Shown here piece after piece: positions 26,617 through 53,258 of a stretch of DNA of 64,000 bases (position 1 is its first letter; each line of letters opens with the position of its first letter). Made by a program: the position numbers and the translations under genes. Source of the DNA: an uncultured Pseudoflavonifractor sp. (GTDB taxonomy: Bacteria; Bacillota; Clostridia; Oscillospirales; Oscillospiraceae); NCBI RefSeq assembly GCF_944387805.1, contig NZ_CALXGI010000011.1:1-64000 (forward strand), read 5' to 3'. Under the pieces are notes generated by a model, which was not told the origin of the DNA, searched no databases, and was given only the letters and a program-made list of their open reading frames with translations.

Positions 26617-29600
26617 TTACCGGCTGAAGAACCGGTACAGGAAGGTGACCACCTGGGCCCGGGTGCAGGTGAGCATGGGGGAGAAGGTGGCGGCAGAGGT
26701 GCCGGTGGTGACATACTCCGCAACGGCCCATTTCACCGGATACCAGAAAAAGTCGTCCTGGTCCACGTCGGTAAAAGCCATGGAGCCGGAGAGCTGCCTG
26801 GGCGAATCGTCGGCCCGCCACAGGAAGGTGACCACCTCCGAGCGGGTGCAGACGGCGTTGGGGGAGAAGGTGGCGGGGGTAGAGCCGGTGGTGATGCCGT
26901 TTGCCGCCGCCCACAGCACCGCGTCATGGTAGAAGGCGCTGGAGGGCACGTCCCGGAAGGGGTTCTCGGCGGAGGCGCCGGCCGTCCCCTCCAGGCCCAG
27001 GGCCCGCCACAGCAGAGTGACCACCTCGGAGCGGGTACAGGCCCGGTCGGGGGAGAAGGTGTCCGGGCCGGTGCCCGAGGTGACGCCGTTTTCCACCGCC
27101 CACTGGACCGCGTCGCAGTACCAGCTGCCGGCGGGCACGTCCCGAAAAACGGAGGAATCTCCGGTGGTGACGTCGCTGGTGGGCCGGATGACCGCGTCCC
27201 CGTCCTTCAGCAGGTATTTCTGCCCGGGCGCGCCGGCGTCCACGTCCAGGGCCATGGTCAGGTCCTTCAGAGCCACGCCGGAGAACAGCACCTCACGGTG
27301 CAGGGCACTGTTGGCGTCCAGCTCCAGGACGGTGATGTCCGCTGTGCCCGAGCCGTAGACCTCCACCGTCCAGTCGCCGCTGGTGAGAAATACAGCGGTC
27401 TGGCCGTCCACGCACTCCAGCTGGAGGCCGCCGGACTTTTTCACGGTGGAGATGACGCCGCCCCGGATGGTGGCCGCCACATCGCCGCTGCTGCTCCTGA
27501 TTTGGGCGTTGGCGGAGGAGGCGAAAGTGACCATCTTTCCGCTGGCGTCAAAGTCACTGATGGAGTTGAGGGTGCCCGCCTCCAGCCAGGCCAGATAATG
27601 GGCTGGCTGGTGGGCCCGGCCGATGGCATTCAGCAGGAGTGCAGCGGGGGCGTTGACAGGCAGCAGCGGCAGCAGGACAGAGATGGACAGCCCGTTGGCC
27701 AGCGTCTCTCCTGCGGAGTACTCCGGCTCTTTCACGCCGTAGTAGGCCCGCAGGCTCTGCTGAATCAGGTCGGAATACCGTTCGTTGTAGGCGCTGCGGC
27801 TGCCTACCGCAACCCCCAGGGAGGAGATGAGCTGCTGGACTGCGGCGGGCTGAGCCACATAGGTGACGGACTCGTCATCATCCAGGTCAATGCCGGAGAG
27901 CGCCTCGAACTCGTCCTTGCGCACCTCGGGCAGGACGGAGGGGAAGGTGAGGGTGGTGCCGTGGCGGCCGAAGCCCCACTTGCTCAGGGGCACGCAGGGC
28001 ACCAGGTCGGCGGCGCTGATAATGGAGAACAGCCCCCGGCAGGCCTTGGGGGAGGTGGTGCAGTTGGGGGCGGCGAACACATAGGCGTAGAGGTTGTCGC
28101 TGTCGATCTGGGAGGACATGGCCTGGGCCAGCAGGTTGCAGGTGGCGCCGGAGCGGCTGTACCCGGTCATCCACAGCTTTACGTCCCCGGAGAACTGGTA
28201 CAGGTCCTTCAGCCCGGCGATGTAGTCCTCCAGCTCAGCCTGGACCGACTTGGTAGCGGCGGAGAAGCCGGCGTGGTCGCCGCTGGCGCCCACATTGAAG
28301 TTGTCCGCCCACTCGCCGCCGTAGCCGCCGCCCCGCAGCACCACGGCCACCACCACGTCCTGGCCGATCTGCCTGCTGGCAAAGCCGTAAGCCACCTTGG
28401 AGGAGGAGTCGGTGAGGGCGGTGTTGTAGTTGTGGAACTCCGCATTGCCAAAGCCGATGTCGGAGAAGAGCCGCTGGAGGTTGAGGGCCCGGCGCAGGTC
28501 GTGCTCGGGCAGCTCCTCGGTATAGAGGTTCTGCCGGGAGTAGCCCGCCATGGCCAGCTTCAGGGTCATGACGGCCAGGTCGCTGTGGTAGGCGCTGTTG
28601 TCGTAGGAGAAGAAGCCGTCGTTGTAGTAGAAGGAATAGGAGGCGGTGTCCCCGTTGGCGTCGGGGTACTCAAAGGTGCCCCGGGCGATTTTATCCACAT
28701 CGGAGGGAATGTACCGGAATTTGACGCCCTCCATGCTGCACTGGAGCTCCGCAGGGGTGCGGACGTAGCCCGTCACCGTCAAAAGCGAGGTCCAGCCTTC
28801 CAGGGCGTGCTCTCCCACGGCCTGGAGGTCGGGACCGCACCGGAGGTCCGTCAGGTCAGAGCACCAGGCAAAGGCCTGCCGGCCGATGCTGATGACGTGG
28901 GTCAGGTCGATGGAGGTGAGGGAGGAGCAGCCGTTAAAGGCGTGGTCCCCCACCACGGTCAGGCAGTCGGGCAGGGTGACGCTGGTCAGCTTTCTGCAGC
29001 TCTGGAAGGCGCCGTCGCCGATCATAACCACCGGGCAGCCCTCCAGCTCCGCCGGGATGGCCACGCTGACCGCTGTCTCCCGGCAGTCGGTGATGACAGC
29101 CTTTCCATTTACGATCTCGTAGGACAGGTCGTCGCTGACGCCGGGCGGGTCCTCCGCCTTGACGGTCAGGCCCTCGGCGTTATAACTGCCGGTCTTGCCC
29201 TGGTAGCAGGCCTGGACGGTGTAGGTATAGGTAGCCCCAATGATGACCGTCCGGTCGGTGTAGGAGCCGCCGGAGCTGCCGGATACGGCGGCGATTTTTT
29301 GGTAGCTGCTGCCGCTGCCCGACTTGCGCAGGATGTTGAAGCTGTCCACCGTGTGGGTCTGGCCGGGGACGGTGAGGGGCAGGGTCCAGGTCACGGTCAC
29401 CGCCTTGTTGGCAAACTCCGCCTTCTCCAGAACGGGGGTGGGGATGGTGCCGGAGGAGGGCTGGGTGGTAGAATCGCCGCTGGAACCGCCGCCTGAGAAG
29501 CGCATGCCCCGCAGGACAGGGTAGGGGTAGCTGCCGCTGCCCATGGTCCAGATGCTGTCAAAGTCAAAGCCGGTGAAGCTGGAGGAGGAGCCCATCTGGC

Positions 29601-30921
29601 GCTCACTCAGACCGCGGACGTTGACCAGAGAGTCATCCGCATAGCCCTCGGGGAGCAGGGGCAGGGCGTCGTCCTGACGCACCAGGCCAAAGCAGTTCTC
29701 CAGGTCCCAGGGCCAACCGCCCAGCGAGGCGGAATAGGAGTTCCCGTTGGAGTCTTTCCCCATATTGACGGCGGTGACCCGCCCTGTGTTATAGCAATTC
29801 CGGGCCAGCCGGGGACCCCAGCCGGACAGGCCGCCCACCATGCAGCAGCCGTCGCCGGAGATGTCGCCGCAGTTGAAGCAGTCGTACAGGGTCCCGCCGT
29901 AGGAGAGCAGGCCGCCTACCTCGCTGGCCCGGCTGCTGTCGGAGCCCTTCGTGGTATCCGTGACAGAAATGTCCGCGGCGTTCATGCAGCGGGTGAGCGT
30001 GGGGCCTGAGGAGCTGGAATTGTTAATGATACCGGCCGCTTTGCCCTCCGGGCCCCGGTATGTGATGGCGCCCCAGTTCTGGCAGCCGGTAATCTCGCCT
30101 GAACCGTGGCCGCAGATACCGCCGATGAGGGCGCTCTGGCCCACAGCCTGGATATCGCCCATATGGATGCATCCGGTTATGGTGATGCGGTCGGCAATGC
30201 CCACAATTCCGCCCAAATCAGGCCCGGAGAACAGGGAACCGGGGTGGGTGGAGACAATGCCGCCCGCCATCCAGCAGTTTTCCACCAGGGCGCCGTCGCC
30301 GGAGGCCCGTCCCACAATGCCGCCCATGGCGCAGGAAGAGGAACTGGAGGAACCGGAGGGGGCGGCGTCATGAATATCCCCGGAGAAGTAGCAGTTGGAG
30401 ATGACCGAGGAGGTGGCAGAAGTGGCGATCTCCCCCACAATGCCGCCGATGGGGGAGGGATTGCTCACGGTTGTATCCGGATAGATGGCGGAATTTTTCA
30501 CCCCCACATTCCGGATGGTCCCGCCTCTGAGAGAGGCAAACAGGCCGCCGGAGCCAGTGATGCCGGTGATGACATGGCCGTTGCCTTCAAAGACGCCGGT
30601 AAAGGGGGAGGTGGAGCACAGGGGCTTCCACTGATAGCCGGACAGGCCGATGTCGGCCATCAGAATGTAGTTGCGGTTGGGGGCGTCCGAGATGGCCAGC
30701 AGATCGGCGGCGGTGTACACGCCGGTGTACCCGGCGGGGACCTGGGCGGCCTGGGACACCGGCGCCAGAAAGCCGTCCAGCACCGGCGCGGCAGGCTTGA
30801 GAGAGCCCGCCGCCTGCGCCTTGGGCGCCAGGGGAGCGCACAGCCCAGCCGCCAGCGCCAGGGTCAAAAGCCAGCTGACGATCCGTGTTGTATTCCGTGT
30901 CCTCGTATCTTGTTTTTTCAT
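26617..30921 (-). CDS. Large secreted multidomain protein with a lipase-like domain and three SLH domains
   Basis: The 1434-residue protein starts with a Sec signal peptide (about 1-37, ending AQAAG). Then come GLUG-type repeats (about 110-470, ..GGIVG.. units), a fibronectin-type III domain (about 485-585), a BspA-like leucine-rich segment (590-720, AFQSCRKLTSVTLP), and an alpha/beta-hydrolase region with the lipase box GYSRSGA (Ser near 922). Three SLH domains (about 1255-1434) end it and bind the cell wall. ATG 30921 has GGAGG upstream. It is exported and anchored to the surface, likely acting on host or microbial lipids or esters; the substrate is unknown. Confidence 0.88.
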   Translation of the reverse strand: MKKQDTRTRNTTRIVSWLLTLALAAGLCAPLAPKAQAAGSLKPAAPVLDGFLAPVSQAAQVPAGYTGVYTAADLLAISDAPNRNYILMADIGLSGYQWKPLCSTSPFTGVFEGNGHVITGITGSGGLFASLRGGTIRNVGVKNSAIYPDTTVSNPSPIGGIVGEIATSATSSVISNCYFSGDIHDAAPSGSSSSSSCAMGGIVGRASGDGALVENCWMAGGIVSTHPGSLFSGPDLGGIVGIADRITITGCIHMGDIQAVGQSALIGGICGHGSGEITGCQNWGAITYRGPEGKAAGIINNSSSSGPTLTRCMNAADISVTDTTKGSDSSRASEVGGLLSYGGTLYDCFNCGDISGDGCCMVGGLSGWGPRLARNCYNTGRVTAVNMGKDSNGNSYSASLGGWPWDLENCFGLVRQDDALPLLPEGYADDSLVNVRGLSERQMGSSSSFTGFDFDSIWTMGSGSYPYPVLRGMRFSGGGSSGDSTTQPSSGTIPTPVLEKAEFANKAVTVTWTLPLTVPGQTHTVDSFNILRKSGSGSSYQKIAAVSGSSGGSYTDRTVIIGATYTYTVQACYQGKTGSYNAEGLTVKAEDPPGVSDDLSYEIVNGKAVITDCRETAVSVAIPAELEGCPVVMIGDGAFQSCRKLTSVTLPDCLTVVGDHAFNGCSSLTSIDLTHVISIGRQAFAWCSDLTDLRCGPDLQAVGEHALEGWTSLLTVTGYVRTPAELQCSMEGVKFRYIPSDVDKIARGTFEYPDANGDTASYSFYYNDGFFSYDNSAYHSDLAVMTLKLAMAGYSRQNLYTEELPEHDLRRALNLQRLFSDIGFGNAEFHNYNTALTDSSSKVAYGFASRQIGQDVVVAVVLRGGGYGGEWADNFNVGASGDHAGFSAATKSVQAELEDYIAGLKDLYQFSGDVKLWMTGYSRSGATCNLLAQAMSSQIDSDNLYAYVFAAPNCTTSPKACRGLFSIISAADLVPCVPLSKWGFGRHGTTLTFPSVLPEVRKDEFEALSGIDLDDDESVTYVAQPAAVQQLISSLGVAVGSRSAYNERYSDLIQQSLRAYYGVKEPEYSAGETLANGLSISVLLPLLPVNAPAALLLNAIGRAHQPAHYLAWLEAGTLNSISDFDASGKMVTFASSANAQIRSSSGDVAATIRGGVISTVKKSGGLQLECVDGQTAVFLTSGDWTVEVYGSGTADITVLELDANSALHREVLFSGVALKDLTMALDVDAGAPGQKYLLKDGDAVIRPTSDVTTGDSSVFRDVPAGSWYCDAVQWAVENGVTSGTGPDTFSPDRACTRSEVVTLLWRALGLEGTAGASAENPFRDVPSSAFYHDAVLWAAANGITTGSTPATFSPNAVCTRSEVVTFLWRADDSPRQLSGSMAFTDVDQDDFFWYPVKWAVAEYVTTGTSAATFSPMLTCTRAQVVTFLYRFFSR

Positions 30922-31073
30922 GACGTTTCCTCCCGGCATTCCCGCCGGCGGCGCCTGCGCCCGTTCCCGTCCTGCAGGATGGCCCGTCCTGTCCCGGAAC
31001 AGGACGGGCAGGCCGCAGGGCCGGCGGTGGGAATAAAGAAATTCCATTTACCCCAATTTCAGTGCAGCGCCGC

Positions 31074-41241: not shown

Positions 41242-41480
41242 GAGAAGCACCCCTTTCTGAAGAGTTTTGCACAGGAAATGGGTATGCGGTGGATAAATTA
41301 TAGCAAGAGCGGGGGAAAAGCACAACCGGGTTTTCGCGCTCAAAGCAGGGGCAAGCCTGGCGGGGCCCAGCTTATTTTCCTGATAAGCAATATTTTTCTA
41401 TCAAAATAAGAAAAACACTGCCTTTTTTCCCGGGGAAAAGGGCGGTATACTGAATGCACAAACAGGAGAGGAGTGAGCAC

Positions 41481-42557
41481 ATGAAGGTGTGCCTGGCGGA
41501 GAACATCCGCATGCTGAGAAAAGAGCGGGGACTGACCCAGGAGCAGCTCTCTGAGGCTATGGGGGTCACGGTGGGGACAGTCTCCAAATGGGAGACGGGC
41601 AGCTGTATCCCGGACGTATCCCTGATGATGGAGCTGGCGGAGTTTTTTGAGACCAGCGTGGATGTGCTGCTGGGGTATGAGCAGCAGAGCACGGCACTGG
41701 AGGACAGGCTGGAGCGGCTGCAGACCCTGCGGTTGGAGAAGAACTATTCCGCAGCCTTTCGGGAGGGGGAGAAGGCTCTGCAGAAGTACCCCAACAGCTT
41801 CCGGGTGGTGTATGAGTGCGCCCAGCTCTATCAGGCGGCAGGGATAGAGCTGGGGGACGGCCAGATGTTCCAGCGCTGCCGGGCGCTGTTCCGGCGGAGC
41901 CTGGGCCTGCTGGACCAGAACCGGAACCCGGAGATTGGAGCGGTCTCCATCCACAACGCCATCGCGGCCACCTATCTGAGCCAGGGGGAGCGGGAGAAGG
42001 GGGTGGCCCTGCTGAAGGAAAACAACGTAGAGGGTATCAACAACGGGCTCATCGGCACACAGCTGGCCCAGGACAAGACCACCAGCCAGGAGGCATTGGG
42101 CTACCTGACCAAAGCGCTGGTGGACAGCGGCATGCAGCTGGTCCAGTTCGCCATCGGCTACAACAACGCCTGTCTCCGCCTGGGCAGAGCGAGGGATTCC
42201 CTTGCCTTTACCCAGCTGCTGCTCCAGTTCCAGGAGGGGCTGAAGAAGCCGGGAAAGACCTCCTATCTGGACAAGGTCAGCGTCATGCTCCTGACGCTGT
42301 GCGCTTTCTCCAGCATGGATATGGGGGATGGCGAACAGGCGGAGGCATATCTCCGGCAGGCCTGGGACCAGGCTGTACGCTTTGACGCCGCCCCCAGCTA
42401 CACACTGGAGAACGTGCGCTTCATTACCACACATCAGAGCGCCGCCTATGACGACTTCGGGGCTACCGCAGCGGGCAGCATCCGAAAGCTGCTGGAGGAA
42501 AACCAGGCGGAGTATCCCGCTCTGCTGGAGCGGTGGAAGGAGATGGAGAGGCGATAA
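41481..42557 (+). CDS. XRE-family regulator with a TPR-like domain
   Basis: The 358-residue protein has an N-terminal XRE helix-turn-helix (about 7-60: LTQEQLSEAMGVTVGTVSKWE). Residues 70-358 are helical with TPR-like periodicity (EKNYSAAFREGEKALQKYPN) and may bind a peptide or a partner protein, as in Rgg/PlcR-like regulators. ATG 41481 has AGGAGAGGAG upstream. A TATACT at 41446-41451 may be its -10 box. It is followed by a gene for a retropepsin-like protein. Confidence 0.85.
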   Translation: MKVCLAENIRMLRKERGLTQEQLSEAMGVTVGTVSKWETGSCIPDVSLMMELAEFFETSVDVLLGYEQQSTALEDRLERLQTLRLEKNYSAAFREGEKALQKYPNSFRVVYECAQLYQAAGIELGDGQMFQRCRALFRRSLGLLDQNRNPEIGAVSIHNAIAATYLSQGEREKGVALLKENNVEGINNGLIGTQLAQDKTTSQEALGYLTKALVDSGMQLVQFAIGYNNACLRLGRARDSLAFTQLLLQFQEGLKKPGKTSYLDKVSVMLLTLCAFSSMDMGDGEQAEAYLRQAWDQAVRFDAAPSYTLENVRFITTHQSAAYDDFGATAAGSIRKLLEENQAEYPALLERWKEMERR

Positions 42558-42619
42558 AACAGCCGGGTCGGAGGGGAAGCGTCTATAATATGGGCGCGCT
42601 GCGGAAGAGAGGATGGACT

Positions 42620-43408
42620 ATGGCGGAAAGACAGGAAAGAAAAGCTGCATTTGAATTGATAGATGGAATTATTCTGGTGCCGGGCGCAATAAAAGATACT
42701 TCCGGATACTTCGCGATTGACACGGGCGCGGTCCAAACGGTTTTGAACCGAATCTACTGCGCTTCAGCGCCCGGCAGTGAGATAAAAGAGGCGCTTACCT
42801 TTAACGGCGGCATGAAGCCCAGTGATATTTCAACGGGGAGTGCAGAAAAAATTTCTGTGGCCGGCTGGGAAATAACGCTGAGCAGCGCTTTGACGATGGA
42901 TATGGATTATGTGGAACGGCCTTTGAGAAAGGGGAGAGACGACCTGGTCTTTCTCGGTTCTATTGGAGCGGATATTCTGGGAACAGGTCTCCTTCTCATA
43001 GACTACCCGAATAAGCAACTCGACTTTTGTGTCTCAAAGATTCCGGAACATGCGAAGAGAGTAAAAATGATAATTGAGAAATTGCCGACGGTTGAGTTGG
43101 AGATACAACAGAGGACATTTCGCTTTGTGATGGATACCGGTGCGAATCATTTTGTGATGGATCGGGAAGCGGTTCCAATGGGAGCCATTGTCGCGTCCTC
43201 TGACAAAGATGCGCCGCAGATGCTCAAATCTCTGCACTTTGCGGGGAGAGAATACAGAAACATAACCGGAATGACAGCCGATCTGTCAGCTGTGAGGGAT
43301 AAGCTTCAGGCGCAGGTGGATGGAATCATCGGCTATCAGCTTCTCAAGGAATATCTGTGCTGCTTTGACTACAAAAATGAATGGCTCTATTTGGCGCCGC
43401 AATGCTGA
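42620..43408 (+). CDS. Two-domain retropepsin-like aspartic protease
   Basis: The 262-residue protein has two DTGA motifs: FAIDTGAV (Asp34) and FVMDTGAN (Asp172). Each is followed by a hydrophobic segment of the GADILG or GIIGYQLL type, so both halves of the protease fold are present in one chain, like a pepsin rather than a dimeric retropepsin. No signal peptide is visible. The start is uncertain: ATG 42620 (AGAGGA upstream) or ATG 42590. GC content and codon choice are lower than around it, suggesting transfer. It follows an XRE regulator that may control it. Confidence 0.8.
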   Translation: MAERQERKAAFELIDGIILVPGAIKDTSGYFAIDTGAVQTVLNRIYCASAPGSEIKEALTFNGGMKPSDISTGSAEKISVAGWEITLSSALTMDMDYVERPLRKGRDDLVFLGSIGADILGTGLLLIDYPNKQLDFCVSKIPEHAKRVKMIIEKLPTVELEIQQRTFRFVMDTGANHFVMDREAVPMGAIVASSDKDAPQMLKSLHFAGREYRNITGMTADLSAVRDKLQAQVDGIIGYQLLKEYLCCFDYKNEWLYLAPQC

Positions 43409-43443: not shown

Positions 43444-43476
43444 CGCCAGCCCTCCCCACTACGGGGAGGGCTGGCG
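43444..43476 (-). terminator. Terminator of the opp operon
   Basis: The stem CGCCAGCCCTCCCC/GGGGAGGGCTGGCG is followed on the minus strand by CTTTTATTTTT. Confidence 0.9.
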
Positions 43477-43705: not shown

Positions 43706-44716
43706 TCAGCCTTCCTTTTTGCGCAGGGGGAAGTGACAGGCCACATAGTGGTCGTTGCCCACGTTGGTCCACTCAGGAACCTCCTCCTTGCACTTCTGCT
43801 GGCAGTAGCGGCAGCGGGTGTGGAACTTGCAGCCGGAGGGGGGATTGACCGGGCTGGGGATATCGCCCTCCAGCAGGATGCGCTCCCGCTTGTCGTCCTC
43901 GTCCACCACGGGGATGGCGGAGAGCAGGGCCTCGGTGTAGGGGTGCAGAGTGTTGGCAAAGAGCTCCTCCGTGGGGGCCAGCTCCACCATGTTACCCAGG
44001 TACATGACGCCGATGCGGTCGCTGATATACTTCACCACGCTCAGGTCGTGGGTGATGAACAGGTAGGTCAGGTTCTGCTTTTCCTTCAGGTCGGAGAGCA
44101 GGTTGAGGATCTGGGACTGGATGGACACGTCCAGCGCGGACACGGCCTCATCGCACACCACAAAAGAGGGGTTGAGAGCCAGGCTGCGGGCGATGCCGAT
44201 GCGCTGCCGCTGGCCGCCGGAGAACTGGTGGGGATAGCGGCCGAACATATAGGTGGCCAGTCCGCAGTCCTCCATGACCTTAAAGATATAGTCCCGCATG
44301 GCCGGGTCGCCCCGCTTGAAGATGCCGTGGGACACCAGGCCCTCGCCGATAATCTGACCCACCGTCATGCGGGGGTTCAGAGAGGAGTAGGGGTCCTGGA
44401 AGATGAGCTGCAGGTCCTTGCGCAGCACCCGCATCTCCTCCTTGGACAGCTTCTTCAGGTCAATGTCCTTGCCGTCCTTGTGGTAGATGACGTCGCCGTG
44501 GGTCTGGGGATAGAGCTGCAGCAGGGTGCGGCCAAAGGTGGACTTGCCGCAGCCCGACTCGCCCACCAGGCCCAGGGTCTCGCCGGCGTAGATATCCAGG
44601 GAGATACCGTCGTTGGCGCGGACATAGCGCTGCTTCTCCCGCAGCTTGGTCTTTTTTACCGGGAAATACTGCTTCACGTCCCGGACAGTCAGCAGCACTT
44701 TTTTCTCATTCACCAT
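43706..44716 (-). CDS. oppF: Oligopeptide ABC transporter ATPase OppF
   Basis: The 336-residue ABC ATPase has Walker A GESGCGKS, signature FSGGQRQRIGIARSLA and the ABC D-loop region of DEAVSALDVS. The C-terminal Cys-rich oligopeptide extension (CKFHTRCRYCQQKC) is present. It forms the nucleotide-binding pair with OppD. The start ATG has GGAGG 7 nt upstream. Walker B reads VVCDEA, with the Asp-Glu pair intact. Confidence 0.95.
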   Translation of the reverse strand: MVNEKKVLLTVRDVKQYFPVKKTKLREKQRYVRANDGISLDIYAGETLGLVGESGCGKSTFGRTLLQLYPQTHGDVIYHKDGKDIDLKKLSKEEMRVLRKDLQLIFQDPYSSLNPRMTVGQIIGEGLVSHGIFKRGDPAMRDYIFKVMEDCGLATYMFGRYPHQFSGGQRQRIGIARSLALNPSFVVCDEAVSALDVSIQSQILNLLSDLKEKQNLTYLFITHDLSVVKYISDRIGVMYLGNMVELAPTEELFANTLHPYTEALLSAIPVVDEDDKRERILLEGDIPSPVNPPSGCKFHTRCRYCQQKCKEEVPEWTNVGNDHYVACHFPLRKKEG

Positions 44717-45701
44717 GTTCAGTCCTCCCCGCCTTCTCCGGGTAGAAACACCGGACCAGATGATTGGGCGCGACCTCCACCAGCTCGGGTTCGGCCTGCT
44801 TGCACTTTTCCGTGCAGTACTTGCACCGGGGAGCAAACTTGCAGCCCTGGGGCAGGTACAGGGGGTTGGGCACCGCGCCGGGGATGGCCTCCAGCCGCTT
44901 GCCCTTGGGGGTGTTGAGCCGGGGGATGGAAGTCATCAGACCCTCGGTGTAGGGGTGGGAGTGGACGCCCTTGTGGAAAATGGTGTAGGCGTCGGCCTTC
45001 TCCACAATCTGGCCGCAGTACATGACGGCCACCTCGTCGGCCATCTCGTGGATGACGCCCAGGTCGTGGGTGATGAACAGGATGGAGGAGCCCGTCTGAT
45101 GCTTGAGCTCGTTCATCAGCTTGAGGATCTGGGCCTGGATGGTCACGTCCAGAGCGGTGGTGGGCTCGTCGGCGATGAGCAGCTTGGGCCGGCAGGCCAG
45201 GGCCATGGCGATCATGACGCGCTGCCGCATACCGCCGGAGAGCTGGAAGGGGTACTGCTTGGCCACCCGCTCCGGATTGGGGATTTTTACGTCGGAGAGC
45301 AGGGAGATGGCCTTGGCGTGGGCCTCCTTCTTGCTCATGTGCTGGTGGAGAATCAGGACCTCGCCGATCTGGCGCTCAACGGTGAACACCGGGTTGAGGG
45401 AGGTCATGGGCTCCTGGAAGATAACGGAGATCTCGTTGCCCCGGATGTGGTGCAGTTCCTTGTCCGAGGCGGCCAGAATGTCCTGGCCGTCAAAGGTGAT
45501 GCTGCCGCTCTCGATATAGCCGTTTCCGTCCAGCAGGCGCAGAATGCTCATGGCGGAAACGCTCTTGCCGGAACCGGACTCGCCCACGATGCCCAGGGTC
45601 TTGCCGGCCTCCAGGCTGTAAGTCACGTCGTTGACCGCCTTCACGATACCCTTCTTGGTGGTGAAGTAGGTGTGCAGATTTTTTACTTCAAGCAGACTCA
45701 T
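44706..45701 (-). CDS. oppD: Oligopeptide ABC transporter ATPase OppD
   Basis: The 331-residue ABC ATPase has Walker A GESGSGKS, signature LSGGMRQRVMIAMALA, Walker B LLIADEPTTALD and the C-terminal Cys motif CKFAPRCKYCTEKC typical of Opp/Dpp ATPases. ATG 45701 follows GAGGTG. It overlaps oppF by 11 nt. Confidence 0.95.
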   Translation of the reverse strand: MSLLEVKNLHTYFTTKKGIVKAVNDVTYSLEAGKTLGIVGESGSGKSVSAMSILRLLDGNGYIESGSITFDGQDILAASDKELHHIRGNEISVIFQEPMTSLNPVFTVERQIGEVLILHQHMSKKEAHAKAISLLSDVKIPNPERVAKQYPFQLSGGMRQRVMIAMALACRPKLLIADEPTTALDVTIQAQILKLMNELKHQTGSSILFITHDLGVIHEMADEVAVMYCGQIVEKADAYTIFHKGVHSHPYTEGLMTSIPRLNTPKGKRLEAIPGAVPNPLYLPQGCKFAPRCKYCTEKCKQAEPELVEVAPNHLVRCFYPEKAGRTEHGE

Positions 45702-45708
45702 ATCCGGT

Positions 45709-47523
45709 TCACCTCTCTTTCGACTTGGGATCAATGGCGTCCCGCAGGCCGTCGCCGATGCAGTTGATGCTGATGGTGCAGATGCCCAGCATCAGGGCCG
45801 GGAACACCCAGCGCCACCAGTAGTTCTCAATAACCTGGCCGTTCTGTGCGCCGGTGAGCATGTTGCCCCAGGTGGCGTTGGGCTCGTTGACGCCGAAGCC
45901 GATAAAGGACAGGGAGGACTCGGTCAGCATACAGGTGGCGAAGTTCAGGGTGGCGTTGACAATGATGACGGTGATGATATTGGGCAGGATGTGCCGGAAG
46001 ATAATGCCGGTCTCCTTGACGCCCAGGGACTTGGCGGCGGTGACGAACTCCTGCTCGCGCTCGGCCAGCACGCTGCCGCGGACCAGGCGGGCGATGCCGG
46101 GCCAGGACAGCAGGCCCAAAATACACATGATCAGGATGATGCGCTGGGTCTCGCTGATGCTGTTGCCCAGGATGGACGACAGGATAATACAGAAGGGGAG
46201 GAAGGGGATGGAGGAGACAATCTCGGTCAGACGCATGAGCAGGTTGTCCACCTTGCCGCCCTTGTAGCCGGACACGCCGCCCACAATGATGCCGATGATG
46301 GTGGAGATAATGACGGAGATGGCGCCCACGGTCATGGTCATGCGGCCGCCCACCAGAATACGGCGGAACAGGTCGCGGCCGAAGGCGTCGGTGCCCATCA
46401 GGTAGCCCTTCAGGCCCCAGGCCACCACATTGCCGTCCTCCTGGATGGCGTAGTTGGCGTAGTAGCCGGCGTCCACAGAGGCCACGGAGGTGGCGCTGGA
46501 GGGCGCGGAAGCCTGGCCGTGGGTGTTGTCGCCCCAGCTGACGGCGGTGCCGTCCTTGAGGATGGCGGTGTAGTGATAGCGGCCGGCGGAGAGGGAGGCC
46601 ACCTGGCCCTGGATCTCCTCGGGCACGTCCAGGGAACCCTTGACGTTGTTGCCCCAGGTGTACACCCGGCCGTCGGAGGTGACGGCGGCGGCGCTCTCGT
46701 CGGTAATGGCCAGGTCAATGACGCTGCCCTGGATCTCCTCGGGGATGTTGGTGTAGGCAGAGGTCTTGGTGGTCAGGGGCACCACCTCGCCGTCCTTGGT
46801 CAGGGCCATGACGATGTTGGTGCTGGCGGCGAACTTGTCGATGTTGCCCTGGACCCCCTCGGGGTAGGTGATGCGCAGCAGGTACTCGCTGCCCCAGTTG
46901 TACATCTTGCCCTCTTCGGTCAGGGCCAGGGAGATCTGGTAGCCGGCCAGAATCTGCTTGATGTTGTTGCCGCCGGTGCGCAGCTCCATGGGGATGCTGC
47001 TCAGGCCCATGCGGTCGTTGCCCCAGGTGAACACCTGGCCGTCCTCATTCACGGCCACCACATGGTCCAAACCGGCGGAGATCTGGACCAGCTTGCCGGT
47101 CTCGCTGGCGCTGGGGATATTTTTCAGCTTCTCGTTGGGGAAGGTGCCCCACTCGTAGACGTTGCCGTCCTTATCCAGGCCCACGGAGAAGGAGCTGCCC
47201 ACGGACATGTCCTGGGCGTTGCCCTGGAGGCCGCTGGGCACGCTCAGCATGCCGAAGCCGGGGGCCACGTTGGCCTGGGTCACGTCCTGGTAGTACAGGT
47301 CGATGGGGAAGAAGTAGGGCAGAATAACGCAGCAGAGGAAAATAACGGTGAACAGAATGACGCCGGCCATGGCGATCTTGTCCCGGACAAAGGAGTGGAG
47401 CGCCATCTGCATGGGGCTCTGAAGGACCTCGTCCTCCTCCTGAGGGAGACTGCCCACCATCATGCGCTGGGCCGCCATGGAGGCGGTGGAGCGGCGGGTG
47501 GCTTTTTTCTTTTGATTTCGCAT
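45709..47523 (-). CDS. oppC: OppC-type permease with an inserted RCC1-like beta-propeller
   Basis: The 604-residue protein is about twice as long as normal OppC (about 300). Residues 1-80 hold the N-terminus and first membrane helix (about 50-73). Residues 105-372 form seven RCC1-type repeats of about 40 residues, each with a DG.V..WG core (near 114, 156, 199, 239, 279, 319 and 358). The permease then resumes with MGTDAFGRD (376-384), further membrane helices and the EAA loop EFVTAAKSLGVKETG. The frame is open throughout, so this is a true fusion. The propeller should sit on the outer face and could hold the binding protein or substrates. Confidence 0.92.
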   Translation of the reverse strand: MRNQKKKATRRSTASMAAQRMMVGSLPQEEDEVLQSPMQMALHSFVRDKIAMAGVILFTVIFLCCVILPYFFPIDLYYQDVTQANVAPGFGMLSVPSGLQGNAQDMSVGSSFSVGLDKDGNVYEWGTFPNEKLKNIPSASETGKLVQISAGLDHVVAVNEDGQVFTWGNDRMGLSSIPMELRTGGNNIKQILAGYQISLALTEEGKMYNWGSEYLLRITYPEGVQGNIDKFAASTNIVMALTKDGEVVPLTTKTSAYTNIPEEIQGSVIDLAITDESAAAVTSDGRVYTWGNNVKGSLDVPEEIQGQVASLSAGRYHYTAILKDGTAVSWGDNTHGQASAPSSATSVASVDAGYYANYAIQEDGNVVAWGLKGYLMGTDAFGRDLFRRILVGGRMTMTVGAISVIISTIIGIIVGGVSGYKGGKVDNLLMRLTEIVSSIPFLPFCIILSSILGNSISETQRIILIMCILGLLSWPGIARLVRGSVLAEREQEFVTAAKSLGVKETGIIFRHILPNIITVIIVNATLNFATCMLTESSLSFIGFGVNEPNATWGNMLTGAQNGQVIENYWWRWVFPALMLGICTISINCIGDGLRDAIDPKSKER

Positions 47524-47536
47524 TGTCTTCCCTCCT

Positions 47537-48529
47537 TTAGTTCTCGAGTCGGACGCGGGGATCCACCATGGTGTAGGCGATATCCATCAGCACGTTGCCG
47601 GCCAGGGACAGCACCACGTAGAACATCTGCATGCTGAGCACCACGGCGAAGTCACGCTGGAGCAGGCCGTCAATGAGCATCTTGCCCAGGCCGGGCCAGA
47701 GGAATACGGTCTCGATGACGATGGAGCCGCCGAACAGGCTGATAATCCACGAGGTGGTGATGGTCACAATGGGGATCAGGGCGTTGCGGAAGGCGTGGAC
47801 ATAGATGACGGTCTTTTCCCGCAGGCCCTTGGCCCGGGCGGTCTTGATATAGTCCATGCGCAGCACGTCGATCATGGCGGCGCGGACGTACCGGGTGATG
47901 CCGCCGATGCCGGACACGGCCATGACCAGCACGGGCAGGACCATGTGCCACGCCGTATCCAGGAACGCACTCAGGCCTGTGGCGTCAAGGCCGGCGGTTT
48001 TTACGCCGCTGATGGGGAATATGGGGAACTTGACGGCCAGCAGGAAGATGGCCAGCAGGGCTACGATAAATTGGGGCAGACTGTATCCCACTATGGTCAG
48101 CACCTGGACCGTCTTGTCAAAGACGCCGTTTTTCCGCACCGCGGTTACAATACCCAGCGGGATGGCGATGATAAACACCACAATCATGGTCAGCACGTTA
48201 AGCAGAACAGTGTTCGCCATGGGGGCGCCGATGATGTTGATGACCTCCTGCTTGTACTGGGTGGAGTAGCCGAAGTTGCCGGTGAGCATGTTGCCCATCC
48301 AGGCCAGGTACTGGATCGGCAGGGGCTTGTCCAGACCCAGGCTGGCCACCGTCTTGTCGTACAGGGCCTGATAGGCGTCCGGCTTCATGGTGGTCTTGCT
48401 GTTGCCCAGCATGATGTCCACCGGGTCGCCGGGCATGGACTTATAGATTGCAAACATCAGGATGGAAATGATAAAAAATACAAAAACGATATATACAAAT
48501 CGTTTTAGCAAATATCTTCCTTTTCCCAT
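47537..48529 (-). CDS. oppB: Oligopeptide ABC transporter permease OppB
   Basis: The 330-residue permease has six membrane helices, the early motif KSMPGDP, and the EAA loop DYIKTARAKGLREKTVIYVHAFRNAL spread over it. It pairs with the OppC-type fusion protein encoded 13 nt downstream. ATG 48529 has GGAGG upstream. Confidence 0.95.
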   Translation of the reverse strand: MGKGRYLLKRFVYIVFVFFIISILMFAIYKSMPGDPVDIMLGNSKTTMKPDAYQALYDKTVASLGLDKPLPIQYLAWMGNMLTGNFGYSTQYKQEVINIIGAPMANTVLLNVLTMIVVFIIAIPLGIVTAVRKNGVFDKTVQVLTIVGYSLPQFIVALLAIFLLAVKFPIFPISGVKTAGLDATGLSAFLDTAWHMVLPVLVMAVSGIGGITRYVRAAMIDVLRMDYIKTARAKGLREKTVIYVHAFRNALIPIVTITTSWIISLFGGSIVIETVFLWPGLGKMLIDGLLQRDFAVVLSMQMFYVVLSLAGNVLMDIAYTMVDPRVRLEN

Positions 48530-48721: not shown

Positions 48722-50623
48722 TTAGGCCTCTACCCAGGCATCCAGGACGGCGCGGGACCACTCCCAAACGGCGGTGGAGTACCAGTCATGGAGCTTCGGA
48801 GAGTAGAAATCGTAATACTCGTCGGAATACAGGGGAATATCGGGCAGTTTGTCGTTCCAAATCGCGATGAAGTTCTGCCAGGTGGTCAGCCAGGTCTCGG
48901 TGTCGTCATAGGGGATGGCCTTCAGGGCCTCAGCGGCGGCAGCCAGCTCCTCGTCGGCAATCCAGTTGCTGTTATAACCTCCCTGCATCCACACGGGATC
49001 GGTGGAGAAGTAGTACCAGGGGGAGCTGGCCAGAGCGAAGCCGGTGGCCAGGTTGTACATGTTGTAGATCTTGTCGCCGGTGTGGGTGATGGCGGCCTGC
49101 ATGGTGGGGAAGTCGGTGGTGGTGGCGCGCAGCTCCATACCGGCCTCGGTCATGCTCTCGGGCAGCATGGTGGCCAGCAGCTCGGACACGGGGTTGTTGC
49201 TGGTGTTGCACCACTCGATGACCAGAGGCTTCAGCTCGCCGTCAACCTCCTTGTAGCGGGTGCCGGTGCCGGAGTAGGGAGTGCCGTCGGCGTTCAGGGT
49301 CCAGCCGTCCTCCTCCAGGAGCTGCTTGGCCATGTCGATGTTCTTCTCATAGGTGTTCAGGTTCTGTTCGATCCAGTCCTGGGACTCCTGGTACTCCCAC
49401 TGGGCCAGGCCGTAGTAGGAGTGGACCACGGAGGCGTAGCCGCCGCTGTACTGACGGGCGAACTCGTTGCGGTCCAGGCAGTAGGCAATGGCCTTGCGGA
49501 CGTTCTCAGAGTCGGTGGGGAACTGGCTGCAGTCGAACTGCACCTTGCCGTAGCCGTTGCGGTAGAAGGTGTTGTCCATCGCCTCGCCGGCCTCCACCAG
49601 ATCCAGGCCGGCATTGATGGTGTCGGCGCCGGAGCACTGGAACAGCAGGTCCACGGAGCCGGAGGCCAGCTCGTTCATCATGGTGTCGCTCTTGACGGTC
49701 TTGATGATGATCTTCTCAATCAGGGGCTTCACGCCGCGGTAGTCGCCGGCGTAGTTGGGGTTGACCACCAGGACGCCCTGGCGGCTGGCGATGTCATAGG
49801 ACTGGAACAGGTAGGGGCCGCAGGTGACGGTGGGGTTGTACCGGTAGCCGGTGGTGGAGTTGTTGATGGTCTCCATGAGCAGATCAGCGGTGAAGTCGCC
49901 GGTGATCATAGCGCCCTCGGGGGCGTCCACCACGTCGCAGCCGGGGGCGATGACGTGCATGGGACGGGGAGCGGCGGAGGCGTAGGTAATGTCGTAGTGG
50001 TAGGGCAGCTCCTCAGCCTGGACGGTGACGGAGTAGGTCATGTCGTCCACCAGGTGCACGCCGGCGAAGTTCTTGGTGTTGCCGGCAAAGTAGTCCTGAT
50101 AGCCCACCAGGGAGTAGCCGGCCTGGCTGGGATAGCCGTCCACGGCGTTCATCTCAGGGCTGCTCTCCAGCAGCAGCTGGAAGACATAGTCCTTGGCGGT
50201 GATGGGAGTGCCGTCGCTCCACACCAGGCCGTCGTTGATGGTGACGGTGTAGGTCTTGGTGCCGTCCTCGTTCTCCACTTCCTCGTGGCTGGCCACCACG
50301 GTGGGATCGTAGACCCAATCGCCCTCAATGTCGGAGACAATGGTGCCGTAGCCGTGGAGCAGGTCGTACAGCTTGTAGTTGGTGGCGTTGTTGTTGAAGC
50401 TGGCGTCGTAGAAGTCGTTATCCAGGTCGGTGGTGGTACCGATAACCAGCTGGCCGGTGGGCTCAGTGGGCTTGACAGCCTCGGTGCCCTGGCTCTGAGA
50501 GGGGGAGGCTGCGGGGGTATTGCTGGCAGAGGGGTTTGTGGTCACGGTCTGCTGGCCGCAGGCAGCGAGCGAGAGAACCGTAGCGCCTGCCAGCAGGAGG
50601 GACAGCAGCTTTTTCTTTTGCAT
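48722..50623 (-). CDS. oppA: Oligopeptide-binding lipoprotein OppA
   Basis: The 633-residue family-5 solute-binding protein starts with a lipoprotein signal (LSLAAC, Cys22), followed by a Ser/Pro/Thr linker. Typical SBP_bac_5 segments follow, such as YTVTINDGLVWSDGTPITAKD and VRKAIAYCLDRNEF. It would deliver peptides to the OppBC channel. It is the first gene of the opp operon, and the 190-nt gap to oppB contains a hairpin. Confidence 0.94.
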   Translation of the reverse strand: MQKKKLLSLLLAGATVLSLAACGQQTVTTNPSASNTPAASPSQSQGTEAVKPTEPTGQLVIGTTTDLDNDFYDASFNNNATNYKLYDLLHGYGTIVSDIEGDWVYDPTVVASHEEVENEDGTKTYTVTINDGLVWSDGTPITAKDYVFQLLLESSPEMNAVDGYPSQAGYSLVGYQDYFAGNTKNFAGVHLVDDMTYSVTVQAEELPYHYDITYASAAPRPMHVIAPGCDVVDAPEGAMITGDFTADLLMETINNSTTGYRYNPTVTCGPYLFQSYDIASRQGVLVVNPNYAGDYRGVKPLIEKIIIKTVKSDTMMNELASGSVDLLFQCSGADTINAGLDLVEAGEAMDNTFYRNGYGKVQFDCSQFPTDSENVRKAIAYCLDRNEFARQYSGGYASVVHSYYGLAQWEYQESQDWIEQNLNTYEKNIDMAKQLLEEDGWTLNADGTPYSGTGTRYKEVDGELKPLVIEWCNTSNNPVSELLATMLPESMTEAGMELRATTTDFPTMQAAITHTGDKIYNMYNLATGFALASSPWYYFSTDPVWMQGGYNSNWIADEELAAAAEALKAIPYDDTETWLTTWQNFIAIWNDKLPDIPLYSDEYYDFYSPKLHDWYSTAVWEWSRAVLDAWVEA

Positions 50624-50729: not shown

Positions 50730-50758
50730 ATTTTATCAAAAAAATATCAGATAATCAA
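50730..50758 (-). promoter_or_regulatory. Promoter of the opp operon
   Basis: On the minus strand TTGATT (50758-50753), 17 nt, TAAAAT (50735-50730), about 107 nt before the oppA start. The surrounding 170 nt are AT-rich. Confidence 0.7.
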
Positions 50759-50869: not shown

Positions 50870-52672
50870 TTACGACTGCATAAGCCCCTCCATTTCCCCA
50901 ATTAGTGTGTCAAAAAGTTTCAAAGCGTCTACGATGGGAGCGGGGGAGGAGATGTCCACGCCGGCGCCCCTGAGCAGGGACACAGGGTCGGCGGAGCAGC
51001 CGCCGCTGAGGAAGCGGAGGTAGTCTTCCACCGCCGGGCGGCCCTCTTTCAGGATGCGCTGGGACAGGGCGATGGCCGAGGCGAAGCCGGTGGCGTACTG
51101 GTAGACATAGAAGTTATAGTAGAAGTGGGGGATGCGGGCCCACTCCAGGGCGATCTCCGGATCGGGCTCGATGTCCTCGCCGTAGTAGAGGGCGTTGAGC
51201 TGGGCGTACTTCTCGTTCAGTGCCTCGGCGGTGAGGGGCTGGCCCTTCCGGGTCTGCTCGCTGCACCACAGCTCAAACTCGGCGAACATGGTCTGGCGGT
51301 AGAGGGTGCCCCGGAACTGCTCCAGGAAGTGGTTGATGAGGTAGGCCCGGCGCTTGGGCTCGGTGGTCTTGCTCAGCAGGTGCTGCATCAGCAGGGCCTC
51401 GTTGCAGGTGGAGGCCACCTCGGCCACGAAAATCTTGTACCCGGCGTAGGTGACGCTCTGGGTGTGGTTGGACAGGTAGGAGTGGAGGGCGTGGCCCATC
51501 TCGTGGACCAGGGTGAACACGTCGTCCAGGGTGTCGGTGTAGTTGAGCAGCACGTAGGGGTGGACGCCGTACACGCCGGCGGAGTAGGCGCCGGAGCGCT
51601 TGCCCTGGTTCTCGTAGACGTCGATCCAGCGGTTGTCAAAGCCCTCGCTGAGGATCTTCAGGTAGTCCTCGCCCAGGGGGGCCAGGGCCTCCCGGGCCAT
51701 ATCCTTGGCCTGCTCGAAGGGGATGCCGGCGTCCTCGTCGGCCACGATGGGGGTGTAGAGGTCGTAGTAGTGGAGCTTGTCCACCCCCAGCAGCTGCTTG
51801 CGCAGGCGCACATAGCGGTGCATGGCGCCCAGATTGTCGTGGACGGTCTGGATCAGGTTGTGGTAGATCTGGGGGTCCACCTCGGTCTCGGCCAGGGCGG
51901 CGTGGAGGGCGGAGGGGTAGCGCCGGGCGTCGGCAAAGAACTGCAGCTGCTTCATCTGGGCGCTCAGGATGGCGGCGCAGGTGTTGCGGAACTGGCCGTA
52001 CACCCCGTAGAGAGACTGGAAGGCGGACTTGCGCAGGGTCCGGTCGGCGGACTGGATCAGGGAGACATAGTTGCCGTGGGTGACGGGGTGGGCCTCGCCC
52101 TTGCCATCCACCGCGTCGGGGTAGGTCATGTCGGCGTCGTTGAGGAGGGAGAAAATGTCGTCCGGGGCCTGGGCCATCCGCTCGGCGGAGGCCAGCAGGG
52201 CCTCGCCGTCCGGGGAGAGGGTGTGGTCCTTCTTGCTGCGGATGCGGCTGAGCATGAGCCGGTAGTGGGCTAGGGCGGGCTCCTGGGCGTAGAAGGCCTC
52301 CAGGGTGGCGTCGTCAATGGCCAGCAGCTCCGGGGTCTGGAAGGAGAGGGCCTGGCTCAGCTCCACCAGAAGGTTCTGGCACTGGGCGCTCATCTCCTGA
52401 TAGACGGCGTTGCGGGTGTCCTCGTCGCTCTTGCGGAAGGCGTAGGAGATGACCCGGTCGCCCTGGAGATCGATCTCGTCCTGGAGCTGGAGGAAGGCCA
52501 GCAGGGTGGCGGCGCTCTCGCCCAGACGGCCCCGGTAGCCGGCCAGGTGATTCACCAGGCCCCGGACGCTGTCGAAGGCCTCCCGCCAGGCCTGGTCGCT
52601 GGGGTACAGGTCGGTGATGGCCCAGGTGTAGGCCGGGTCCACCTGGCTGCGGGTGGGAAGGGTATGTGCCAT
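50870..52672 (-). CDS. pepF: Oligoendopeptidase F (M3 family)
   Basis: The 600-residue zinc peptidase has HEMGH (His390) in LVHEMGHALHS, then the downstream Glu in EVASTCNEALL. Family M3 PepF enzymes cut peptides of 7-17 residues in the cytoplasm. ATG 52672 has AAGGAG upstream; the open frame upstream is not needed. Downstream of it on the same strand lies the opp operon with its own promoter, a natural peptide import and digestion pair. Confidence 0.93.
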   Translation of the reverse strand: MAHTLPTRSQVDPAYTWAITDLYPSDQAWREAFDSVRGLVNHLAGYRGRLGESAATLLAFLQLQDEIDLQGDRVISYAFRKSDEDTRNAVYQEMSAQCQNLLVELSQALSFQTPELLAIDDATLEAFYAQEPALAHYRLMLSRIRSKKDHTLSPDGEALLASAERMAQAPDDIFSLLNDADMTYPDAVDGKGEAHPVTHGNYVSLIQSADRTLRKSAFQSLYGVYGQFRNTCAAILSAQMKQLQFFADARRYPSALHAALAETEVDPQIYHNLIQTVHDNLGAMHRYVRLRKQLLGVDKLHYYDLYTPIVADEDAGIPFEQAKDMAREALAPLGEDYLKILSEGFDNRWIDVYENQGKRSGAYSAGVYGVHPYVLLNYTDTLDDVFTLVHEMGHALHSYLSNHTQSVTYAGYKIFVAEVASTCNEALLMQHLLSKTTEPKRRAYLINHFLEQFRGTLYRQTMFAEFELWCSEQTRKGQPLTAEALNEKYAQLNALYYGEDIEPDPEIALEWARIPHFYYNFYVYQYATGFASAIALSQRILKEGRPAVEDYLRFLSGGCSADPVSLLRGAGVDISSPAPIVDALKLFDTLIGEMEGLMQS

Positions 52673-52853
52673 AGCGTATGACTCCTTTGTAATTGTAAAA
52701 TGGTCTGTGCCTGCTTCTTTCGCACAGTATAAATGTAGTATACCACATAACGGCCGGTCTTGCCACGGCATCCGTCCATTCGAGGGAAAATTGGGCAAAT
52801 GGAGCGCAATATATATAAAGGTATAGGCTATATAGTGAAAGGAGGAGGCGGAG

Positions 52854-53258
52854 GTGCTGGTGATTGAGAAGCTCTCCGCCACCGGCGGCACCTCCGCCCT
52901 GTCCGGCGGCGGCATCGACGCCCCCGGCTCCGTGCTTCAGAAGGAGGCGGGCATTGAGGACAGCCCCGAGGCCTATGTGGAGCAGTGGATGTACTACCAG
53001 TCCCTCACCCACCGGGAGGGCATGGAGAATCCCGACGAGGAGCGCTGCCTGTTCCTGGCCCGGCAGGGCGCCGGCCTCATCGACCGGCTCATGAGCTACG
53101 GCTATGAGTTCGGCACCCCCATCCCCAACCTGTATGCCGCCGGCGCCATCTCCAACGGCGCCCTGTATGACACCGCCTACATGTCCGGCTCCTCGGTTCT
53201 CAACTGCTATGTGATGGGCCGCATTGCCGGCGCCAACGCCGCCGCCCTGGCGGACTGA
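52854..53258 (+). pseudogene. Remnant of a flavocytochrome c/fumarate-reductase-like flavoprotein
   Basis: The 134-residue frame joins an N-terminal piece (VIEKLSATGGTSALSGGG, then SPEAYVEQWMYYQ) to the very C-terminus (IPNLYAAGAISNGALYDTAY and the closing MGRIAGANAAAL). About 300 middle residues and the N-terminal FAD-binding GxGxxG are missing. Both pieces match the family of the intact flavoprotein at 54.1-55.9 kb. The protein cannot bind FAD normally, so this is a deletion remnant. It may still be transcribed. Confidence 0.82.

Follow-up and report, generated by a model that had tools for sequence, protein, structure and literature searches.

A predicted seven-bladed RCC1-type propeller in the TM1-TM2 loop of an OppC permease

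What is a run of RCC1 repeats doing between the first two membrane helices of a peptide permease? The question is raised by an oppC gene in a 64,000-nucleotide stretch of DNA from an uncultured Pseudoflavonifractor species (the window). The gene is an uninterrupted minus-strand frame running from 47523 to 45709 and encoding 604 amino acids (Table 1); a 655-aa open reading frame lying over it on the plus strand was rejected as a shadow of the coding gene. Pfam profiles match OppC_N at residues 36-88, six RCC1_2 stretches, and BPD_transp_1 at residues 411-601, all above their cut-offs: OppC_N scores 42.8 bits against a gathering score of 23.9, BPD_transp_1 118.6 against 26.4, and the RCC1 repeat profile PF13540 reaches 145 bits in the insert against a cut-off of 22. 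The score for the NCBIfam equivalog Opp4C, a narrow subgroup, is 323.6 bits and falls below the cut-off of 350 because the insert cuts the match in two. On these profile matches, the protein is placed in the broad OppC family, outside the Opp4C equivalog.

A first-pass annotation had described the insert as seven DG.V..WG units spaced by 39-43 residues. The seven DG units and their spacing are borne out, with starts at residues 103, 145, 188, 228, 268, 308 and 347; WG is present in six only, the fourth unit reading KDGEVVPLT. The DG motif occurs seven times in the insert; when these residues were shuffled 5,000 times, it appeared at most twice. The insert is real, but its earlier limits (residues 105-372, about 270 residues) need redrawing, as the fold spans 103-370 and residues 72-376 separate TM1 from the GTD motif. 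Structure prediction, proposed at the time as the check on whether the insert is a propeller at all, returned a propeller. The AlphaFold2 (AF2) model, built on 57 relatives (mean pLDDT 86, pTM 0.79), places exactly seven blades of three strands each between TM1 and the TM2-TM6 core, with pLDDT of about 93 for the propeller (residues 103-370), ranging over about 87-95. BLIP-II likewise has three-stranded blades. When the model was compared with the PDB by Foldseek, BLIP-II (1jtd, 3qhy, 3qi0) ranked first, with TMt of 0.77-0.79, rmsd of 2.3-2.5 Å and 30-31% identity to the insert, and Escherichia coli OppC 8z21_B aligned over 225 columns (TMt 0.73, rmsd 2.0 Å, 42% identity in the Foldseek alignment). 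Sequence searches agree: among solved sequences, the insert is closest to BLIP-II and the core to OppC. With seven modelled blades and BLIP-II as the nearest solved fold, the repeats are predicted to close into a full propeller, as had been expected. BLIP-II, also seven-bladed and RCC1-type, is a free secreted inhibitor, whereas the OppC propeller is part of a membrane protein.

Table 1. Features of the propeller-bearing oppC gene and its surroundings, in window positions
Feature	Residues	Position	Strand	Basis or remark
oppC with RCC1 insert	604 aa	45709..47523	-	single open frame
Ribosome-binding site AAGGAGG		47531..47537	-	7 bases ahead of oppC ATG
TM1, after K/R-rich cytoplasmic N-terminus	49-71	47311..47379	-	AF2 helix, hydropathy, charge count, OppC_N
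TM1-propeller linker	72-102	47218..47310	-	conserved; N85, P88, P96 nearly invariant
Seven-bladed RCC1/BLIP-II-type propeller (predicted)	103-370	46414..47217	-	Pfam, sequence search, AF2, Foldseek
Blade 1	103-126	47146..47217	-	AF2 strands
Blade 2	145-168	47020..47091	-	AF2 strands
Blade 3	188-211	46891..46962	-	AF2 strands
Blade 4, without WG	228-249	46777..46842	-	AF2 strands
Blade 5	268-291	46651..46722	-	AF2 strands
Blade 6	308-331	46531..46602	-	AF2 strands
Blade 7	347-370	46414..46485	-	AF2 strands
Junction LKGYLMGTDAFGRD	371-384	46372..46413	-	highly conserved; runs straight into TM2
Permease core, TM2-TM6 and coupling helix	385-604	45712..46371	-	
oppB, partner permease		47537..48529	-	ordinary TM1-TM2 (scoop-region) loop
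oppA, lipoprotein substrate-binding protein, SBP_bac_5		48722..50623	-	best PDB match OppA 9p48
oppD, ATPase		44706..45701	-	
oppF, ATPase		43706..44716	-	
Terminator-like hairpin		43444..43476	-	strong; downstream of oppF
Promoter-like site ahead of oppA		50730..50758	-	weak, near chance
Oligoendopeptidase F, Peptidase_M3		50870..52915	-	upstream neighbour in the window's lineage

The window comes from a draft genome of 110 contigs, and one might suspect that an assembly artefact or a chance join of two genes produced this layout. The recurrence of the architecture in many independent genomes, in cultured isolates and in single-contig genomes refutes this concern, a sequencing join having been named in the first-pass annotation as a possible refutation, and leaves it a vanishing probability. 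In an order-level survey, 30 of 394 genomes carried a full or contig-cut propeller-OppC, separated from permease-only matches by a sharp gap in score. Class-wide and phylum-wide draws, which overlap, gave 17 carriers among 391 genomes (20 matches, three of them permease-only) and 14 among 398, respectively; two carriers from these draws are single-contig genomes. When 84,980 species genomes were scanned for the junction WGLKG[YF]LxG, with a seven-sequence alignment as query, 230 relatives were recovered. The 80 that were kept comprise Bacillota (Oscillospiraceae, Lachnospiraceae, Tissierellia and Erysipelotrichaceae) and five spirochaetal records. Isolates bearing the architecture include Coprococcus comes, Hungatella effluvii DSM 24995, Gemmiger formicilis, Soehngenia longivitae and Falcatimonas. 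All dereplicated members (57 of 57) combine OppC_N, RCC1 and BPD_transp_1, and the length from TM1 to the GTD motif stays within 297-350 residues across 97 proteins, so that there is no sign of blades having been gained or lost. Spread by plasmids or other mobile elements was rejected, as none of the plasmid records matches the protein over 80% of its length. Far from being a one-off oddity, the architecture is ancient and widespread. The window's own genome also holds, on contig C2 (L176:1138-1857), a stand-alone 239-aa RCC1-repeat open reading frame unrelated to the operon.

OppC-type permeases have a cytoplasmic N-terminus and six transmembrane helices. In the present protein, the segment before TM1 contains 9 K/R against 5 D/E, a bias common to nearly all of the 97 relatives. 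Because the insert comes after TM1, the propeller should, by homology, lie outside the membrane. The earlier placement of the insert on the outside, near the site where OppA docks, is consistent both with OppC topology and with the Ami model considered below.

The rest of the operon is complete, as noted at first sight: oppC is encoded with intact neighbours for OppA, OppB, OppD and OppF, and this gene order (OppA-OppB-OppC-OppD-OppF) is found in the loci of the kept relatives wherever the contig is long enough, the exception being L095, in which the locus check did not detect OppA upstream. An LSLAAC box marks OppA as a lipoprotein, and the protein resembles peptide-binding OppA proteins of solved structure; the system is predicted to be an oligopeptide importer. 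In the window's lineage, the operon is preceded by an M3-family oligoendopeptidase F gene, which makes peptide use plausible. Directly beyond the opp terminator, the plus strand encodes an aspartyl-protease-like protein (42533-43408) beside an HTH regulator (41454-42557). Farther away, on the minus strand (26617-31047), lies a gene for a likely surface protein of 1476 aa that combines S-layer homology domains with leucine-rich repeats of the BspA type.

When permease cores were placed in a tree, the 95 sequences with a propeller grouped in a single clade (support 1.0), separate from 32 other OppCs, so that the simplest history would be a single old insertion, kept vertically ever since. Propeller and permease-core distances are correlated (r = 0.83; permutation maximum 0.10). 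Among the five closest orthologues, the propeller has a dN/dS ratio of 0.12-0.24, against 0.5-0.6 in two more distant pairs whose dS is doubtful, a further pair being saturated at synonymous sites; in close relatives, the propeller is under purifying selection. Median identity is 0.44 for the propeller, 0.41 for OppA and 0.68 for the permease core: the propeller evolves at OppA's pace and faster than the core to which it is joined. The uniform layout, the single clade, the presence of an Opp operon at nearly every locus and the low dN/dS lend support to the earlier view that the fusion is functional. Another idea is that the propeller is a surface adhesin or a cell-wall anchor that happens to be borne by the transporter. 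An extracytoplasmic position would suit such a role, and some propellers are lectins, the Tectonin match of the insert being weak (24.5 bits, below cut-off). However, the length and architecture are constant, the rate equals that of OppA and is not hypervariable, and propeller distances track the Opp operon. We regard the adhesin as a long shot.

Of the three roles put forward in the first-pass annotation, a dock for the binding protein is the best supported, while the adhesin and the substrate "cage" found no positive support. We favor, with a probability of roughly 55%, the reading that the propeller is a rigid extracytoplasmic platform that docks and clamps OppA beside the scoop loop of OppB. 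On the simplest history, an ancestral oligopeptide importer gained a complete propeller between TM1 and TM2 of OppC a single time, and its lineage has retained it. Sitting above the channel formed by OppB and OppC, at its outer opening, the propeller would contact the lipoprotein OppA and would also touch the scoop loop of OppB; on OppA, the contact would probably be with lobe 2, the predicted binding place of the short coil in an ordinary OppC or AmiD. The loaded binding protein would be held in register, and the propeller would help to keep the cavity sealed during peptide transfer.

Precedents exist for this arrangement. The pneumococcal Ami model has two predicted contacts with the binding protein: AmiD, which is homologous to OppC, touches lobe 2 through the coil joining TM1 and TM2, and AmiC clamps the binding protein with its large extracellular domains (PMC11192437). 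In E. coli, a scoop motif in the TM1-TM2 region of DppB enters DppA (PMC12136057) and MalF-P2 contacts MalE (PMC3150292). By these precedents, a propeller located between TM1 and TM2 of OppC stands where OppA should dock. The AB loops, which by strand order are on the propeller face where the chain exits to TM2, are better conserved in blades 1-3, 6 and 7 than in blades 4-5, their AG..H pattern being partly generic to RCC1 repeats. The residual (partial) distance correlation of the propeller is 0.41 with the outer TM1-TM2 loop of OppB, 0.27 with OppA and -0.11 with cytosolic OppD, values that are weak and suggestive only, among sequences that share history. It is the combination of the Ami, Dpp and Mal precedents, AB-loop conservation and partial correlations that makes us favor docking. 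The propeller is not needed for docking as such, because ordinary OppCs dock OppA without any such domain; two paralogous ordinary OppCs in the window's own genome (L002 and L003) have no propeller.

The strongest of the residual correlations, that with the OppB loop, together with the very short and conserved C-terminal link to TM2, would also suit a propeller that packs on the outer loops of OppB and steadies the channel, acting in permease assembly or gating without binding OppA. Since the correlation with OppA is positive too, and other OppCs assemble without any insert, this is distinctly unlikely. One could also envision a receptor that captures peptides or proteins for the transporter, much as beta-lactamase is captured by BLIP-II, or that senses a protein outside the cell: the RCC1/BLIP-II propeller is a fold that binds proteins, the nearest solved relative, BLIP-II, is itself a binder, and, in the window's lineage, the gene for peptidase F is located upstream. 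Yet a dedicated OppA is co-encoded in nearly all loci, and a ligand does not follow from the fold alone. We give this proposal a minor but real chance, and a slimmer one to a built-in, BLIP-II-like second receptor that would itself capture peptides or secreted proteins, feed or gate the importer and provide it with two extracytoplasmic recognition modules.

How does the docking platform proposed here relate to known systems? MalF P2 of the E. coli maltose importer differs from the OppC propeller in both loop and fold. It is also a folded periplasmic insert in one permease, contacting the binding protein (PMC3150292), but in a sugar importer, unlike Opp. Streptococcal AmiC, an OppB homologue, likewise has a large extracellular region (ECD1/ECD2) in one permease of a peptide importer (PMC11192437); AmiC is, however, the opposite permease subunit from OppC, and its extracellular region is described as two ECDs rather than a propeller. 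Solved OppC and DppC structures (E. coli OppC 8z21 and DppC 8z1v; Mycobacterium tuberculosis 8j5q) share the transmembrane core, the GTDxxGRD motif, the coupling helix and the operon with the propeller-bearing protein but have a short TM1-TM2 loop and no propeller. The first-pass annotation knew of no described transporter with this layout, and in the open-access literature searched we found nothing relevant on RCC1 combined with OppC or a permease. The OppC architecture is widespread and apparently undescribed, although automatic domain databases may already list the OppC_N-RCC1-BPD_transp_1 combination. It provides a repeatedly seen natural case of a complete propeller tethered at both ends in a transporter loop, in common gut Clostridia such as Coprococcus comes, Gemmiger formicilis and Hungatella effluvii, and a few hundred 600-residue entries named "ABC transporter permease" could receive a more precise annotation. 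If docking is true, the OppC TM1-TM2 loop would be a site at which peptide importers acquire clamps for the binding protein, and the propeller a clean, deletable module for testing how handover from binding protein to importer is controlled.

Other OppCs of the same order, 520-740 aa long (L011, L017, L019, L022, L147), carry a large insert at the same TM1-TM2 site; it consists of alpha/beta repeats without a Pfam match, and these proteins fall outside the propeller clade. An unrelated insert in this position suggests that outer domains have been accommodated by this loop more than once. In Foldseek searches of the PDB, only the permease core of the alpha/beta type gave confident matches, and confidence in the insert fold is moderate. 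A non-RCC1 insert of helix-plus-strands repeats, again with no Pfam match, is seen in the TM1-TM2 loop of the 520-740-aa OppCs at L147, L144, L145, L146 and L151. In propeller-Opp operons outside the window's own sub-clade, the ATPase OppF has about 150-200 extra residues, with much charged coiled-coil-like sequence, inserted after Walker A and before the Q-loop (L088, L097, L098, L113, L132, L138 and L141). On the propeller tree, the OppFs without this stretch make up precisely one clade (24 of 57), and the OppFs encoded beside the other large-insert OppCs are without it as well.
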